From an uncultured Lachnospiraceae bacterium (GTDB lineage: Bacteria > Bacillota > Clostridia > Lachnospirales > Lachnospiraceae), in NCBI GenBank assembly GCA_944380065.1, contig CALWGM010000116.1:1-34676 (forward strand): 34,676 nt of DNA. The letters are read 5' to 3'. The notes beneath the pieces are model-generated. The model did not search any database. It worked only from the letters and a program-made list of their open reading frames with translations, and was not told where the DNA came from. This document shows, piece after piece, positions 770 to 7,957 of the stretch; position 1 is the first letter of the stretch, and every line of letters starts with the position of its first letter. A program made the position numbers and the translations under genes.

Positions 770-2737
770 ATGCAACTGGAGGAAGCCCTGAAACTATACA
801 GAAACAACTTTACCGATACCTACTGGCAAAATGCAAAGTGCCGATGGGAATGCGTGAAACACTTCCAGGAGCACTGGAAACCGGAAAATCCCAACCTTCC
901 CTTCGCGGACATGCTTGCCGCATCTTTCGGACAGACGGAAGGCCTGTCAAGGCTGATCAACGCGGACAGCGTCCCCTTCTCCAATATGGTAAATCTCGCG
1001 AAATCTGTCCCGGCAGAAGTCCGGGCACTGTTTCATCTGCTTTTTGACGAACGGGCAGATCTCTGGAAGCGGATGCGTGATTTCCAGACCCGCATGCTGT
1101 CCCTGCTGGAGGCGCAGGGGGGCGACGCTTCCCTGTTCTACTTTTCCGAGACGACGGTCAGCATCCTCCTCTGGCTCCGCTATCCCTGGAAATACCATAT
1201 TTACCGATTCTGGGAGGTAAAAACTCTCGCGGAGGAGCTGCAGCTGCCCTACACCTTTGCGTTAGGATCAGATGCGGACAATATCCGAAACGCCTGCCGG
1301 ATGTACGATTACCTGCGGGAGACTGTCTGCCGGGATGAGGCGCTGATTTCCCAGATGAGAAGCCGTCTCGACGAAACCTGCTGGCCGGACCAGGAGTGCG
1401 GGATTCTCGCTTCCGATATTGCCGCCACTGTCAGCGGATATCTGACCATCGCAGAGCAGAATGACCGACAGAATACCCGGTCCACCGAGCGGTTTTTCGC
1501 CGGTCTGTCGGCCCGTGACTGGGCAAAGCTCCTGGCGGATGAGCGCGTCTTCCTCCCCGGAGACATGGAGATGCTGCAAAAGATGAAGGACCAGAACTGC
1601 TGGCGAAGCTACGATGAGCTTCCCCAGACGTCCTCCGATCGGACGGATCCGACAGATTCGGCAAAGAAGAAAAATCCCTCAGAGAAGCGCGATACGGAAA
1701 ATGCCAGAGAAAAACGCGGCACGGAAAACTACAATAAAAAGGTCATTTCTCTCAGCTGGCGCCTCATTCACAAGACGGGATGTCCCACAAACGTGACCAA
1801 GGGCGTGCTCCACGAGGAGTGCCGGATCGACGGCGAGACCGCATGGCGGCTGCGGAACAATCTTTCTTTGGCTCTTTACACCGCCAAAGATTTTCTCGCT
1901 GAAGTCTACATGGCCCGGGAGCAGTTTGCCCGGCTGAAAAATCTGGTCAGGAAAAAGAAGAACGTGATCCTCCAGGGAGTGCCGGGTGTGGGCAAGACCT
2001 TTACGGCAAAACGACTGGTTTACTCCCTCATGAAGTCAAAGGACGACAGCCGGATCCGCTTCATCCAGTTCCACCAGAGCTATTCCTACGAAGATTTCGT
2101 CATGGGCTACCGGCCCTCCGGCGACGGGTTCCGGCTGCAGTACGGCGTCTTTTACCGCTTCTGCCAAAAAGCGGCGGCCTGCCCCAATCAGGATTTCTTT
2201 TTCATCATCGACGAAATCAATCGGGGAAATATCAGCAAAATTTTCGGGGAACTGCTGATGCTGATCGAACGGGATTACCGGGGAACAGAGGCCGTGCTGG
2301 CCTACGACGGCAAGCCTTTCTCGGTGCCGGAAAATCTCTATATCATCGGTATGATGAACACGGCCGACCGGAGCCTGGCCATGATCGACTACGCTCTCCG
2401 CAGGAGATTCAGCTTCTTTGAGATCGCGCCGGGATTTGACTCCGATGGTTTTCGGAACTATCAGCGGAGACTGAACAATCCCCATTTCGACGCGCTGATC
2501 ACGGAGATCAAAGCGCTCAACGAGGAAATCGCGGAAGATCTCTCCCTGGGTCGGGGCTTCTGTATCGGCCACAGCTATTTCTGCGGCTGTAAAACGCCCG
2601 CCGACTGCACGGATGAGTGGATGAAGTCCGTTGTGGAGTATGACATCCTCCCCATGCTGGGGGAATACTGGATAGATGATGACCGTGAAAAGCAAAACTA
2701 CTGGCAGAGACGTTTGCATGACATATTTGAAAAATGA
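770..2737 (+). CDS. mcrB: McrB-type AAA+ GTPase of a modification-dependent restriction system
   Basis: A 655-residue protein. Residues 1-280 form an unfamiliar N-terminal region, probably the DNA- or modification-sensing part. A charged low-complexity linker covers about 281-322. The C-terminal half is a McrB-type AAA+ motor: Walker A GVPGVGKT near 403-410, Walker B FFIIDEINRGNISKIFGEL near 477-495, and the McrB signature MMNTADRS near 529 followed by the arginine-rich ALRRRF. In the McrB family this motor hydrolyses GTP and translocates DNA while the McrC partner cuts. The ATG follows AAGGAGG at 753-759. The stop overlaps the mcrC start by 4 bases (ATGA), which implies translational coupling. 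The N-terminal specificity domain does not match one I know, so the recognised modification is open. Confidence 0.93.
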   Translation: MQLEEALKLYRNNFTDTYWQNAKCRWECVKHFQEHWKPENPNLPFADMLAASFGQTEGLSRLINADSVPFSNMVNLAKSVPAEVRALFHLLFDERADLWKRMRDFQTRMLSLLEAQGGDASLFYFSETTVSILLWLRYPWKYHIYRFWEVKTLAEELQLPYTFALGSDADNIRNACRMYDYLRETVCRDEALISQMRSRLDETCWPDQECGILASDIAATVSGYLTIAEQNDRQNTRSTERFFAGLSARDWAKLLADERVFLPGDMEMLQKMKDQNCWRSYDELPQTSSDRTDPTDSAKKKNPSEKRDTENAREKRGTENYNKKVISLSWRLIHKTGCPTNVTKGVLHEECRIDGETAWRLRNNLSLALYTAKDFLAEVYMAREQFARLKNLVRKKKNVILQGVPGVGKTFTAKRLVYSLMKSKDDSRIRFIQFHQSYSYEDFVMGYRPSGDGFRLQYGVFYRFCQKAAACPNQDFFFIIDEINRGNISKIFGELLMLIERDYRGTEAVLAYDGKPFSVPENLYIIGMMNTADRSLAMIDYALRRRFSFFEIAPGFDSDGFRNYQRRLNNPHFDALITEIKALNEEIAEDLSLGRGFCIGHSYFCGCKTPADCTDEWMKSVVEYDILPMLGEYWIDDDREKQNYWQRRLHDIFEK

Positions 2738-3882
2738 CAAGAGACAATAATATTCTGATCAAAAACATCTATTATATGCTGGCTTACACCTATGACACCT
2801 TAACGCCTTCCGTCTTTGAGGCCATGCAGGTGGAGCGATTTGACAATATTTATAATATGTATGCCCACGTTCTGACCCGCGGGCTGGGCGTCCAGCTGAA
2901 AAAGGGATTGAACAAAGCCTACCAGACCAGGACCGAGGAGATGACGACTGTCCGGGGCAGGATTTCTATACCCGACACCATCCGTGCGCGGATGCAGCAG
3001 AAATATACCCTGGTGTGCGAGACCGATGAACTGACGGAGAATCATCTTTCCAATCAGATTCTCAAGACAACGGCTCTTTTTCTTCTGCGCCATCCCGATG
3101 TGGACCGGAATTATAAGAAGGAACTGAAAAGGGAGCTGATGTACTTCTCCGATATAGACGCTATTCTGCCCCAGATGATTCGCTGGGACCGTATCCGGTT
3201 TCAGCGGCACAGCAAAGATTACCGGATCATGTTGGCAGTCTGCCGCCTGCTTTTGGAGGGCATGCTGCTGACAACGGAGCCGGGCGCCAACCGCCTCTTT
3301 ACCTTTCAGGAAATCCGAGGCCTCTCGGAGCTGGAGAAAAAGGAGCGCACCAAAAAGCTGGCAAAACTCTTTGAAACCTTTGTCCGCAAATACTATGCCA
3401 GGGAGTATCGGCAGTTTCCCGGATTTTCATCCACGGATGAGACCATGATCTGGCAGGAGGATAACGGCTATGTCGAATATTTACCAAAGATGCACACCGA
3501 CATCACGCTGACTTATGGACGCAAGATACTGATCATTGACACCAAATATTATCAGAATACACTGGAAAGAAATAAGGAAACCGGCAACACCTTTCTCTCT
3601 CCCGACAATCTTTATCAGATTTTTGCTTATGTGAAAAATAAAGAAGCTTTCCTGACAAAACGTGAAAAGGAAACAAATCCCAATGCCCAAAAAACTCCGC
3701 CTTTTGAAGTCAGCGGTATGCTTCTGTACGCCCGGACACAGGAACCAAAGCAACCCGACAACGTCTATTCTTTCATGGGCAGCAAAATCAGCGTAAAATC
3801 TCTGAACTTAAACGCGGATTTCCAGAATATCCGCCGCCAGCTGAACGATATTGTCTGCACGCATTTCGGCAGTATGAAATAA
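2734..3882 (+). CDS. mcrC: McrC-type nuclease subunit
   Basis: A 382-residue protein of normal McrC length. McrC stimulates the McrB GTPase and carries the PD-(D/E)XK nuclease. The expected catalytic triad is visible: Asp256 in HTDITL, then Asp269-Thr-Lys271 in LIIDTKYY, with 13 residues between the first two acids as is usual for this fold. The N-terminal half, with NIYYMLAYTYDTL near the start, matches the McrC N-terminal region that contacts McrB. It starts inside the end of mcrB with an ATGA overlap. All key residues are present, so the restriction system looks intact. The gene ends 79 bases before the end of the converging cassette on the other strand. Confidence 0.93.
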   Translation: MTRDNNILIKNIYYMLAYTYDTLTPSVFEAMQVERFDNIYNMYAHVLTRGLGVQLKKGLNKAYQTRTEEMTTVRGRISIPDTIRARMQQKYTLVCETDELTENHLSNQILKTTALFLLRHPDVDRNYKKELKRELMYFSDIDAILPQMIRWDRIRFQRHSKDYRIMLAVCRLLLEGMLLTTEPGANRLFTFQEIRGLSELEKKERTKKLAKLFETFVRKYYAREYRQFPGFSSTDETMIWQEDNGYVEYLPKMHTDITLTYGRKILIIDTKYYQNTLERNKETGNTFLSPDNLYQIFAYVKNKEAFLTKREKETNPNAQKTPPFEVSGMLLYARTQEPKQPDNVYSFMGSKISVKSLNLNADFQNIRRQLNDIVCTHFGSMK

Positions 3883-3961: not shown

Positions 3962-5260
3962 CTATATCTGTTTTTGCCCATAAACAATCCCGGCCAGCCT
4001 TTTTTCATACTCTGCCCTTACATCTTCTACATCCTTGCTGATGTCCTCTCTCTCCGGGATATCAAAATATTTTCTGTACTCCGGGGGGAGCAGTTCTCCG
4101 CTCTCCGCATCTTCCAACTGGTTGGCCAGATGAAAATTTTCGTAGAAAATATCCCGGGACCGTACATTGAGCTGTCCCTGGTAAATATTCAGGGCCCGAT
4201 CCAGATCAGAAAAGAGAATACCTTCCGGGTTGCTGTCACAGCTCTCATAGACCATATCGACCATCGAATAAGGACACCACAGATAAGTGTCCTCCAGCCT
4301 TGCTTCCAGATTCAGGAATTTTACAATCGCGTAACAACAGGGCCGGTTTCCCAGAATTCTTTTTACAATCCTGCGCGTCCGTGGATCCGCGTCCCAGCTT
4401 TTCAGGTATGCCCTGCCGACCAGGTACAGACCGCTTCCCGAATCATTGTCTGTCATCAGAGGAATAACGGCTGTCGTCATCCTTTTTTCGTATACAAACT
4501 GATACAGCTCCTCTATCTTTTCTGTCATATCCGGATTCTGTGAAACAGCGCGCGGAGCAGCCCGGTTAATAGAAGACATTTTCTGAAAAGACAGGTCTCT
4601 TTTTGAAAAATAGAAATCCAGAAGTTTCAGGGGAATTGTCTTGATTCTCGGCCTCGCCAGCCTGGCCAAAGCAACGTCTTCCTTCTCATAATCCCTGTCC
4701 TTTGGAAGGGGATACCCTGCGTTATACAGAAACTGCGCCGCCTCCGCACAAAGATAAAGATCCATCACGTTCTCTGCCACACCTTCCATTTTCTCAGGAT
4801 CACAGTCTCTTCGCAAAATTTCCATTTCAGAAAGGATAGGCTGTTTCCGTTTCTTTCCCGCTTTCGATACACTGACCAGCCTGAGCAGTGTTTCCAGAAA
4901 AAGTTCCGTGCATTCTTTCTGCAGTGTGCGGTTCTTTTCTCTCTTTCCACGTTCATATGCCGCCAGATAATCATAATATCCGCAGAGAATTTCCACTGCC
5001 GGCTGCCTGCCCGAGGTTCGTCTGCCGGATTTCATACGATCTGCCGCGGGGCTGCAGCCATCCGTTTCCAAACTATTTTCCCCGGCAATCTCTTCGTAAG
5101 GACCGAAAACCGCTGTTTCTTCATATATCCGTTTTCTTTCCCGCACCGCTGCGTGACGCCTTTTTTCTTCTCTGAAATAACAGCACAAAACAGACCTTTC
5201 CCCATAAAACATCATATCCTGGCGCAGATCTTCAAGAAAGTCTTCGTGAAAGCTACCCAT
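3962..5260 (-). CDS. Protein of unknown function, third gene of the ClpX-like cassette
   Basis: A 432-residue protein that I do not recognise. It is charged and predicted to be mostly helical, with no signal peptide, membrane segment or known motif that I can see. Residues about 75-95 form a basic, low-complexity stretch (KSGRRTSGRQ). I chose the ATG at 5260 because an AAGGAG site lies five bases upstream; a start 15 bases earlier would put that site inside the gene. It overlaps the end of the preceding gene by 8 bases, so the two are translationally coupled and their products likely act together. It may be an adaptor, sensor or effector for the ClpX-like unfoldase, which is inference from gene order only. 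Confidence 0.75.
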   Translation of the reverse strand: MGSFHEDFLEDLRQDMMFYGERSVLCCYFREEKRRHAAVRERKRIYEETAVFGPYEEIAGENSLETDGCSPAADRMKSGRRTSGRQPAVEILCGYYDYLAAYERGKREKNRTLQKECTELFLETLLRLVSVSKAGKKRKQPILSEMEILRRDCDPEKMEGVAENVMDLYLCAEAAQFLYNAGYPLPKDRDYEKEDVALARLARPRIKTIPLKLLDFYFSKRDLSFQKMSSINRAAPRAVSQNPDMTEKIEELYQFVYEKRMTTAVIPLMTDNDSGSGLYLVGRAYLKSWDADPRTRRIVKRILGNRPCCYAIVKFLNLEARLEDTYLWCPYSMVDMVYESCDSNPEGILFSDLDRALNIYQGQLNVRSRDIFYENFHLANQLEDAESGELLPPEYRKYFDIPEREDISKDVEDVRAEYEKRLAGIVYGQKQI

Positions 5261-6299
5261 GCATTCTCCTTTCATCTCTCAGTGCCGTCTCTTTTACGCG
5301 TTTTCCCGCTCTGCGCAGCAGCGCGGCCGCAGTAAAATAAGTATCGTCGTCCTCCAGATGCGACAGGCCTCTTTTTTCCAAAAACATCAACACGGCCGTC
5401 TTCACATCATCCTCTAAGCGGCATGCCGTCTCCATCATCGCTATTTTGTCTATGGAGCCCCCAACATACAGGCTGTCGTATGCAGGGTCATATTTTTGGG
5501 AACGGAAGGAAAGATAACTCTCAACAAACTTTTCCTGTTCCGAAAACCGTTCTCTGATTTCCTCTGCCGCTTTTTCCGTTCGCTGCTCAGCGGAAGACGA
5601 AATTCCATCCAGAAAATAATCAAAGTATTCGGACGGTTTGCATCCGACACGCTCCATTCCATTTCTCATCTCCACAGGAAGCTGGAAAATGTATTTTTTC
5701 TGAAGATCTTCCGGATAGAGATCTGACAGATTTTTTCCTGTAAACAGGTGTACCAGCCAGGAGGCGGGACGGTAAATTCCTTTCATCCCATCATAATTAT
5801 TCCGAAGCCCTTCCGCCACCGCTTCCCCCGCGTATAATTGTGCCTGCCTTTCATAATGATCCCCGGAAAACCACAGAAGATCATGAAACGTCTGCGTCGC
5901 GCCGGATATATCCTCCCCGTCAACATCGCAGAGTTCCTCCGCCTCGGAAATCCGCAGTGCGCAGTAGAAAAAATTCCGGAAGAACGTTTCTGCCTCTTCT
6001 GAGAATCCCGGAAAAACATTTCCTGCTTCTGTCCATTCTCTGCCGTACATTTCCTCCTGTTCCCGCAGACTGCAGTCTGCCTCATATTCATGATAAAGCC
6101 GCACATATCCGACCAGTTCTTCTATGACTTCTTCTGTTTTTTCCGGACTGTAATGCCCCTCCCCGTCTCTGATATACGGGAGAATACTTTCATATTCTCC
6201 CGTGAGATGGATCCTGTACTGTTCCAGTTCTTCTGCCATCAGCTTCTCCCGGAATTTCAGAAGCGCGATCCTTTTTATGTTCTGTTTTTCTCTTTCCAT
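5253..6299 (-). CDS. Acidic helical protein of unknown function, second gene of the ClpX-like cassette
   Basis: A 348-residue protein that I do not recognise. It is rich in Glu and aromatic residues and looks soluble and helical, with no signal peptide, membrane span or metal-binding cluster. The start at 6299 is set by a clear AAAGGGGG site a few bases upstream; an open frame continues 53 codons further but would run into the end of the ATPase gene. It lies 28 bases after the ClpX-like gene and overlaps the next gene by 8 bases, so all three are probably one transcript. Its position between the unfoldase and another orphan protein suggests a shared complex or pathway; no biochemical role can be assigned. 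Confidence 0.75.
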   Translation of the reverse strand: MEREKQNIKRIALLKFREKLMAEELEQYRIHLTGEYESILPYIRDGEGHYSPEKTEEVIEELVGYVRLYHEYEADCSLREQEEMYGREWTEAGNVFPGFSEEAETFFRNFFYCALRISEAEELCDVDGEDISGATQTFHDLLWFSGDHYERQAQLYAGEAVAEGLRNNYDGMKGIYRPASWLVHLFTGKNLSDLYPEDLQKKYIFQLPVEMRNGMERVGCKPSEYFDYFLDGISSSAEQRTEKAAEEIRERFSEQEKFVESYLSFRSQKYDPAYDSLYVGGSIDKIAMMETACRLEDDVKTAVLMFLEKRGLSHLEDDDTYFTAAALLRRAGKRVKETALRDERRMHG

Positions 6300-6327
6300 A
6301 CCGTTCCCCCTTTTCAGAGAAAGTATA

Positions 6328-7737
6328 TCACATCTCTCCGGCAAAAGGAACATGGACAGGATTTCCGATCCAGTATTCTTTTTTCTCTCCCTCATTGTAC
6401 ATCTGTTCGTCCAGATACTCCTGCAGACGGTTTCGGAGATATCTGACTCCGAAACCATTTTTCGCGGCTTCCCCGGCCAGTTTTCTCTCCGTCCTCTCCT
6501 CCAGATGAATCGTAACGCCGTACATTTTTTCCAGCTTACGCACCGGAGAAATCTTTTTGTCCTTGAGAATACAGCGGAAATCTTTTTCTGTCATGGGATG
6601 AAGCTGTACAATCTGCTGGATGCGTCCGGCAATCTCCTGACGGACTCCGGCGTATTCAATTAGATCCTGCGCTGTAATTTTATTCAGATACTGCGCTCCG
6701 GCGTCTTTTTTTTCGCCGTTCCTTCCAAATCCAATGGACTCTTTCTGTTCAGAGGCCGTCTTCTTCCCGACCAGCTGCTCGAAGCTTCCGCAGAAGACAA
6801 AACTCATCCCTGAACTGTCAAAATCCACCGCCTCTCTTCCGTTATCAGATCCGAATGAGATTCGTGATCCCTCGATCATCTTCAGAAGTTCGTTCTGCCC
6901 CGCCGCGGAATAATTCGCGCCGCTGCCTGAATATAACGGCTCACAGAATTTATCGAACTCGTCAAAAACAATAATGGACTTCTCTATTTCTTCTGTTTTC
7001 ATACCGCGAAAAATATCCTGTATCTTAAATCCGCCGCTCCATCCCTGCATGGTAATGGCGCTGCTGTCGACAATGCGGATATTCGGATAAATTTTTTTCA
7101 TAACCCGCCAGATCTCCGTCTTCCCGCAGCCTGTCGGCCCGATAAAAAGAATATTCCTTTTTCTTTTCCGTATGTGGTTATACAGAAGAATCGAGGCCGC
7201 CTTTACAGCCTCTTCCTGGCCGTAAATCTTAGAGGAAAGATATTCCTTGATCGCTCTCGGACTTTCCGCGAAATGAGGATCAAAGGTTTCCTCTTCCTCA
7301 GAGTTTCCCTTTTTCATATAACGCTCATATCTCTGTGTTTTTTTGCACAGGCCGTACATATCCGGAAGTCTGTTCCCGTCGTCATCCTTCCCGGGGACTC
7401 TATTTTCTTCTGTAAATTCGCCGTGAGCGGCAGCATAGTAATCGGTCAGCAGCTCCGCGATCAGATGGATCTCCTCTCTGCTCATCTTCAGTCTCGATAA
7501 AAACTTTACAAAAAGCTCGCCGCTGCTTTTTGAATAATCTTTTTCCCAGAGCTCCGCCAGTTCTTCCGTTTCTGCCAGAAGTTCATGGTATCCGTCGTCC
7601 GATATTTTATGGAACACCCCCTTTTTCGCGTACTGGCAAAACAGCGCCCCGGGATTCAGATGCTTTTGCTTCCCTCCGTCTTTTACTGCTTCTCCTAAAT
7701 ATTTTTCAATCCATTTTGTACAAACTGATCTTCTCAT
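6328..7737 (-). CDS. ClpX-like AAA+ unfoldase with a non-zinc-finger N-terminal domain
   Basis: A 469-residue protein. The region 170-450 aligns by eye with ClpX: YGQEEAVKAA and YNH near 172-188, Walker A GPTGCGKT at 200-207, pore-loop segment QGWSGG at 231-236 (ClpX has GYVG), Walker B IIVFDEFDKF at 255-264, LLKMIEG near 284-290, an IGFG tetrapeptide at 335-338 where ClpX carries its ClpP-docking loop, arginine finger in EIAGR (Arg372), and sensor 2 in GVRYLRNRL. The first 150 residues are helical and lack the ClpX zinc-binding domain, so substrates or adaptors must differ. ClpX unfolds proteins for ClpP; the retained IGFG suggests this one may too. The ATG at 7737 has AAAGGA seven bases upstream. 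It is the first gene of a three-gene operon and is not the housekeeping clpX, since no clpP or tig is nearby. Confidence 0.85.
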   Translation of the reverse strand: MRRSVCTKWIEKYLGEAVKDGGKQKHLNPGALFCQYAKKGVFHKISDDGYHELLAETEELAELWEKDYSKSSGELFVKFLSRLKMSREEIHLIAELLTDYYAAAHGEFTEENRVPGKDDDGNRLPDMYGLCKKTQRYERYMKKGNSEEEETFDPHFAESPRAIKEYLSSKIYGQEEAVKAASILLYNHIRKRKRNILFIGPTGCGKTEIWRVMKKIYPNIRIVDSSAITMQGWSGGFKIQDIFRGMKTEEIEKSIIVFDEFDKFCEPLYSGSGANYSAAGQNELLKMIEGSRISFGSDNGREAVDFDSSGMSFVFCGSFEQLVGKKTASEQKESIGFGRNGEKKDAGAQYLNKITAQDLIEYAGVRQEIAGRIQQIVQLHPMTEKDFRCILKDKKISPVRKLEKMYGVTIHLEERTERKLAGEAAKNGFGVRYLRNRLQEYLDEQMYNEGEKKEYWIGNPVHVPFAGEM

Positions 7738-7895: not shown

Positions 7896-7916
7896 AAAAA
7901 AGCTGCCAATGCTTTT
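7896..7916 (-). terminator. Possible intrinsic terminator after rlmD-like gene
   Basis: On the - strand the stem AAAAGC / GCTTTT with a seven-base loop is followed by extra T residues, 42 bases after the stop of the RNA methyltransferase gene. The stem is short and AT-rich, so this is a weak call. It separates that operon from the ClpX-like cassette. Confidence 0.4.
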
Positions 7917-7957
7917 ACACATCAGCAGCGAATCGCTTTCTGTCCGGTGTTCTGTTT

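Follow-up and report, generated by a model that had tools for sequence, protein, structure and literature searches.

The window analysed here, 34,676 nucleotides (nt) long, is one whole contig (CALWGM010000116.1) of the 160-contig genome GCA_944380065.1 of an uncultured Lachnospiraceae bacterium. A cassette of three genes, designated A, B and C, lay head to tail on its - strand next to a McrBC restriction system (Table 1), with a gap of 28 nt between A and B and an overlap of 8 nt between B and C. Three open reading frames (ORF) were thus found at 3962..7737, where the original prediction had placed a three-gene - strand operon. The start of B was corrected from 6458 to 6299, as B, taken as a 401-amino acid (aa) ORF, would overlap A; a GGGGGA stretch precedes the probable start ATG at 6299, which gives 348 aa, and AAAGGAG precedes the probable start ATG of C, at 5260.

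Table 1. Features of the cassette and its surroundings (window positions)
Feature	Position	Strand	Basis
Gene A, ClpX-like AAA+ protein, 469 aa, N-terminal helical domain	6328..7737	-	
N-terminal helical domain (N-dom), A residues 1-105, fused here	7423..7737	-	Hidden Markov model, E 1.5e-5
ClpX-type AAA+ core, A residues 157-449	6391..7269	-	phmmer + Foldseek
Walker A GPTGCGKT, A 200-207	7117..7140	-	
Walker B IIVFDEFDK, A 255-263	6949..6975	-	
IGF motif, A 335-337	6727..6735	-	
Gene B, 348 aa, family unknown	5253..6299	-	
Gene C, 432 aa, family unknown, motif around IPxxxDxxxGxGxYxxG	3962..5260	-	
Terminator-like hairpin between rlmD-like gene (upstream) and A	7902..7929	-	Consensus match only
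McrB-type gene	770..2737	+	NCBIfam match
McrC gene, convergent with C	2734..3882	+	Pfam + NCBIfam match

Protein A matched two NCBIfam ClpX models (E 1.1e-34, residues 150-453; E 1.2e-29, residues 136-449), and the closest solved sequence by phmmer was ClpX 6sfw (E 8.7e-23, residues 157-448). Its structural model, made from an alignment with seven phage rows, had a mean predicted local distance difference test score (pLDDT) of 67.5, and its best Foldseek matches were ClpX chains (E 6.3e-17; TM-score 0.53 by query length). The AAA+ core held Walker A, Walker B and the aromatic pore-loop residue (GWSG), which together with the fold match agreed with the ClpX-type AAA+ protein first proposed. In ClpX the IGF loop docks on ClpP; A had this loop as a sequence motif only (IGFG at 335), located where the pLDDT of the model was low. 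The scores of A against the two ClpX models (120 and 103.6 bits) were below the equivalog cut-offs (359 and 370.75), only AAA and AAA_2 exceeded the Pfam cut-off, and the ClpX zinc-binding domain was not among the Pfam matches listed, the helical N-dom being found instead.

In a tree of 25 rows, a clade of 15 including A was separated (support 100/99) from the remaining 10 rows, which were housekeeping, plasmid and phage sequences, and the nearest kin of A were the N-dom-fused proteins of loci L012 and L034 (support 99/99). Left out of the tree were L016 (without the Walker A stretch), L024 (resembling L038) and L052 (resembling L051, with an internal stop), all three counted among the 18 ClpX-like copies. 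The pattern [ILV]GF was kept in 15/15 members of the A clade and missed 4/10 other rows, including ClpX L060 of the own genome; simple motif patterns also failed to pick up Walker A (L049) and the pore loop (L049, L050). The matches of A among phages and plasmids were ClpX-like proteins (24.7-32.2% identity among the matches listed), as were those in viral contigs (26-30% identity). By its sequence, A is a protein that would work like ClpX in outline, yet not a member of the ClpX equivalog. That A is the housekeeping ClpX was ruled out by the scores below cut-off, the separate clade, the presence in the own genome of two further ClpX proteins that exceed the curated cut-off, one of them beside clpP, and its rarity in the genus (1/20 genomes; E limit 1e-40). 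The second of those two, longer than the clpP-adjacent one, was located in L084 on contig C146. A match in genome G152 (L018) grouped with housekeeping ClpX and was dropped.

A profile of N-dom, with nine stand-alone proteins (97-145 aa) as its sole input and searched against 2308 ORF, found four fused proteins (L012, E 1e-10; L016, 9.3e-6; A, 1.5e-5; L034, 1.1e-4), the next match being at 0.17. In the model of A the domain had five predicted helices (pLDDT 55-73 per 10-residue block). Across the 18 ClpX-like copies N-dom was fused in 4, encoded by a nearby gene in 12 and neither in 2 (L014 and L015, of one genome; the contig of L014 ends just past the ClpX-like gene). In 12/12 adjacent cases the stand-alone gene followed the ClpX-like gene in the same orientation, at a distance of -11 to +1030 nt. 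By this sequence distribution N-dom is the usual partner of the ClpX-like clade of A. The original prediction had called it a foreign N-terminal domain; that it differs from the N-terminus of ClpX was borne out, and the word foreign was misleading. In one genus, 79 genomes were searched: a ClpX-like query lacking N-dom matched 8 (E 1e-30 or less) and the N-dom profile 9, 8 of them in common. As 7 of these 8 gave rows to the profile and match by construction, the informative result is that the profile matched just a single further genome, G692. In that genome (L082) an isolated N-dom and a DUF5688 gene were 1.4 kb apart, the former beside a split integrase, and no ClpX-like gene was noticed in the part read.

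Above chance, N-dom had no match in Pfam, PADLOC or PHROGs, and the N-terminus of A had none in NCBIfam; the best solved structure by sequence was at E 0.81, which is not meaningful. N-dom was not found in plasmids or phages, nor in viral contigs with one peptide pattern, which is insensitive. The N-dom-fused copy that lacks the Walker A stretch (L016:11343-12635) had a frame that stays open. At L012:10289-15763 the genes of a Ser/Thr kinase, a 410-aa protein, a PP2C phosphatase, the N-dom-fused ClpX-like protein and a 237-aa protein formed a row; the 410-aa and 237-aa proteins had no Pfam match, and as candidates for C or B they gave no match in either direction.

Proteins B and C, originally described as two coupled proteins of unknown family, had no match above cut-off in Pfam or NCBIfam and none in PADLOC or PHROGs (the longer ORF were used with Pfam, PADLOC and NCBIfam); their homologues were run on differing sets of libraries, not every one on each. 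A profile of 4 B homologues, with the window excluded, recovered the B of the window at E 1e-5 (next 1.0), and a corresponding profile of 4 C homologues recovered its C at E 1.1e-7 (next 0.31), both among 2618 ORF. In 500 shuffles the score of B was reached 0, 18 and 1 times for three homologues, and that of C never. The two genes were adjacent in 5/5 loci of 4 genomes, -23 to +19 nt apart, and the pairs of L063 and L069 were near-identical (95-96%). As A, B and C each had homologues in other genomes, the cassette is more than a chance assembly.

Searched alone, B matched 2/61 genomes, one match (L002) being a 73-aa stretch with 7 stops, and 0/19 of the congeneric genomes among them. With the C profile, only G561 was matched among 79 genomes of its genus, and G669 and G764, the latter twice, among 29 genomes of the genus of G669. 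A C-profile match in G666 (L064; E 0.005, one stop) was rejected, as the B and C profiles found nothing better than E 5.8 there. Scans of the genome contigs with B alone and with C alone gave no match. B was not found in viral contigs, and C neither in plasmids nor in viral contigs, where one scan was a single, insensitive peptide pattern. The best matches to solved structures by sequence (B profile, E 0.5; C profile, E 0.67) were not meaningful, and the model of B alone was all-helical with a mean pLDDT of 39, which is not reliable.

The partners of the B-C pair differed among loci. In L035, found by reading the neighbours of ClpX-like genes, two coupled genes (B-C) preceded a ClpX-like gene, with N-dom also present. 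In L063 the gene directly after C encoded a 1237-aa protein composed of AAA_2, an FtsH-type AAA part and peptidase M41 (HEAGH at 1068), the two AAA parts being only distantly like A (best E 7e-4). In L070, a 176-aa gene came after C, and next a 260-aa M41 gene that had no AAA part. Of the 5 B-C loci, 4 had an AAA+ unfoldase or protease nearby, or an apparent remnant of one. Because the pair accompanied a ClpX-like gene in L035 and an M41 protease in L063, these two loci give the best evidence that B-C serve unfolding or degradation, and the sequences point to a dedicated proteolysis module. This module had originally been proposed from layout only, and gained support from the pair preceding the AAA-FtsH-M41 protease; likewise, the suggested co-occurrence of homologues was found, as the pair itself in 5 loci of 4 genomes and as the pair with a ClpX-like gene in L035. 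The 1237-aa protein (L063:5160-8873) belonged to a row of genes that also encodes an Mrr nuclease and a conjugative coupling protein.

A recurrent cassette of a ClpX-like gene, a DUF5688 gene and a stand-alone N-dom was found at L017, L037, L047, L049, L050, L051 and L052, several of these loci adjoining recombinase, integrase or relaxase genes. The DUF5688 gene lay between the other two in L017, L037, L047, L049 and L050 (gaps 869-1030 nt) and preceded the ClpX-like gene in L051 and L052; it was assigned by Pfam for the L017 protein (8.5e-84) and as homologues of it for the others (E 3e-9 or better). These cassettes shared with the window the ClpX-like clade of A and the same N-dom, although in trans, and had DUF5688 where the window has B-C. 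C and B as remote DUF5688 members were not supported (hhalign probability 0.3% and 0.1%). In the open-licence PubMed Central (PMC) literature searched, neither a paper on DUF5688 nor a description of such cassettes was found.

Compared with ClpXP, A had the AAA+ core, the Walker and IGF motifs and a model matching ClpX chains, and differed in its helical N-dom with no zinc-binding domain found, the missing RKH, scores far below the ClpX cut-offs, a clade of its own and the partners B and C. IetAS consists of an AAA ATPase and a subtilisin-like serine protease. The likeness to it was an AAA+ ATPase with a protease, and IetA profiles matched the L063 protein in its FtsH-like AAA part (7.5e-35); it differed in that the protease here would be ClpP, or is M41 in L063, in the addition of B and C, and in the match of A to IetA (only E 0.04). 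No protease match was found for B or C in Pfam, PADLOC or NCBIfam. Dodola (DolA, DolB) is a two-gene anti-phage system with a Clp-type ATPase, according to an excerpt of PMC11514479. The PADLOC DolB profile matched A (E 1.6e-12), but only over A residues 146-217 around the P-loop (profile 116-190 of 375) and not over its full length, and neither B nor C had a PADLOC match to DolA; membership of the cassette in Dodola was rejected on these two grounds. In the PMC literature covered no such system was described, which left standing the original statement that none with this make-up is known, and we rate the cassette as a ClpX-type machine with new dedicated parts.

As predicted, the cassette converged on an intact McrBC system: McrB and McrC were adjacent full-length ORF, with 79 bases from the end of McrC to the end of C. 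McrC exceeded the Pfam McrBC cut-off; against the curated NCBIfam cut-offs, both McrC (NF007277, E 6.1e-89, 298.6 of 338 bits) and McrB (NF008457, E 1.3e-87, residues 370-649, 294.5 of 637 bits) were below. Guanine plus cytosine (GC) content was 0.47-0.48 in A, B and C, 0.47 in McrC and 0.54 in the contig remainder (9914-34676). A MarR-type regulator gene (188-709), just upstream of McrBC and near the contig edge, had the lowest GC content measured (0.43). Given the hairpin upstream of A, the cassette may be transcribed as a separate unit; between 3700 and 8100 there were 9 terminator-like sites against a shuffle mean of 4.2, and single sites prove little.

The ClpX-like search matched 6/348 genomes at E 1e-30 or less (own genome and the ClpX of G152 included), and the ClpX-like profile with N-dom 7/392 at E 1e-40 or less (own included); only copies within these limits were examined as loci. 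Tool-confirmed defence-type genes were present at 7/20 loci, namely McrBC in the window, Mrr in L063 and L069, DarT-NADAR in L035, HsdM, HsdR and TIR in L017, methylases in L037, and Cas1 with a methylase in L014. A ParE toxin (L050) and a helicase (L070) and Ser/Thr kinase (L012) that match defence models were not counted, as these families are widespread. Genes of mobile elements were also present at 7/20 loci (L034, L037, L047, L049, L050, L051 and L063). At L035:10505-14357, the ClpX-like gene and N-dom were followed, all in one orientation, by genes of a transglutaminase-like protein, DarT and the NADAR antitoxin.

Building on the observed layout, AAA+ motifs, separate clade, fused or adjacent N-dom, conservation of B-C and second AAA+ protease, we give an even chance to A being an accessory ClpX-type unfoldase to which N-dom and B-C deliver targets, probably for host ClpP, in an acquired cargo that most likely serves defence. 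N-dom would be a helical adaptor built into A; N-dom, B-C or both would bind particular target proteins and bring them to A, which would unfold them and probably thread them into host ClpP. B and C would function jointly on the substrate, as its sensor, its delivery adaptor or a brake on it, and the cassette would be accessory cargo gained by horizontal transfer that most likely belongs to a defence against phages or other mobile DNA. We infer ring formation, ClpP docking, the substrates, what B and C do and that the cassette serves defence.

Several results weighed against this interpretation. The neighbours were picked by eye in the partly read flanks of the 20 loci without a background rate, and a defence-type neighbour was identified in only 5/17 ClpX-like loci read. 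The only PADLOC match of note for A was that of 72 residues around the P-loop to DolB. The cassette was very rare: C alone matched 1/348 genomes, and its profile 4/392 (the own genome, G561, G669 and G666) and, among 167 genomes of the class, only the own genome. B was linked by profiles only (single-sequence E about 1; two-homologue profile 0.049). In L069, C was followed only by a 106-aa gene and an Mrr-type nuclease, with no adjacent AAA+ protease gene. The GC content of McrB (0.545), similar to that of the contig remainder, did not fit a simple low-GC island. The RKH pore loop was absent from the A clade (0/15 members vs 7/10 other rows), a test that does not decide, as L018 and L060 of the housekeeping ClpX group also lacked it.

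The loss of RKH, together with a ClpP link that is a motif in a low-confidence part of the model, would also fit an A that unfolds or disassembles complexes without ClpP, with B-C as its clients. This is unlikely given the [ILV]GF pattern in 15/15 clade members and the FtsH-type protease beside B-C in L063. A conserved housekeeping operon, the alternative that the original prediction had itself allowed for, was disfavoured by the distribution of A and B in the genus. ClpX relatives usually serve protein quality control, and an ordinary stress or housekeeping operon might be expected on that ground; with A in so few congeneric genomes and two other ClpX proteins above cut-off in the own genome, it is very improbable.

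The neighbouring genes allow two other readings. In Escherichia coli, ClpXP targets the HsdR subunit of EcoKI during DNA translocation in restriction alleviation, according to an excerpt of PMC4231737. By analogy, the cassette might unfold or degrade a neighbouring restriction enzyme that attacks self DNA and so protect the host, as restriction genes lay beside the cassette in the window and in L017, L063 and L069; but the enzymes were of different types (McrBC, type I, Mrr) with no constant partner, and inspection by eye of the stretches read in L012, L016 and L047-L052 revealed none, which makes this role quite unlikely. The ClpX-like modules might instead aid transfer, replication or persistence of integrative elements, for instance as remodellers of a Rep, relaxase or integrase complex, the window copy being such cargo left behind. 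A relaxase in L047 and L049, a serine recombinase in L049 and L050, an integrase in L037 and L051, PcfJ in L034 and the conjugative coupling protein in L063 favour this upkeep of elements; it was nevertheless judged improbable, as the element types varied between loci, L048 appeared by eye as a housekeeping-like neighbourhood, and none of the window ORF read as protein (1-12.5 kb) was recognised as such a gene.

Extending the preferred reading of A as an accessory unfoldase of a defence cargo, B-C could be a portable sensor-and-delivery unit placed on interchangeable AAA+ degradation machines (a ClpX-like protein with host ClpP, or a built-in FtsH-type protease) that destroys proteins of invaders or infected cells, a new class of proteolytic immunity in mobile DNA islands; this extension is tentative and rather doubtful. 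Both the ClpX-like clade and the helical domain delineated in this analysis lack a model in the family libraries searched. If the preferred reading is true, a ClpX engine was equipped with an adaptor domain of its own as well as two dedicated partners, and is at work in DNA islands, and a B-C pair common to a ClpX-like motor and an FtsH-type protease would offer a handle on how unfoldases gain new substrates.

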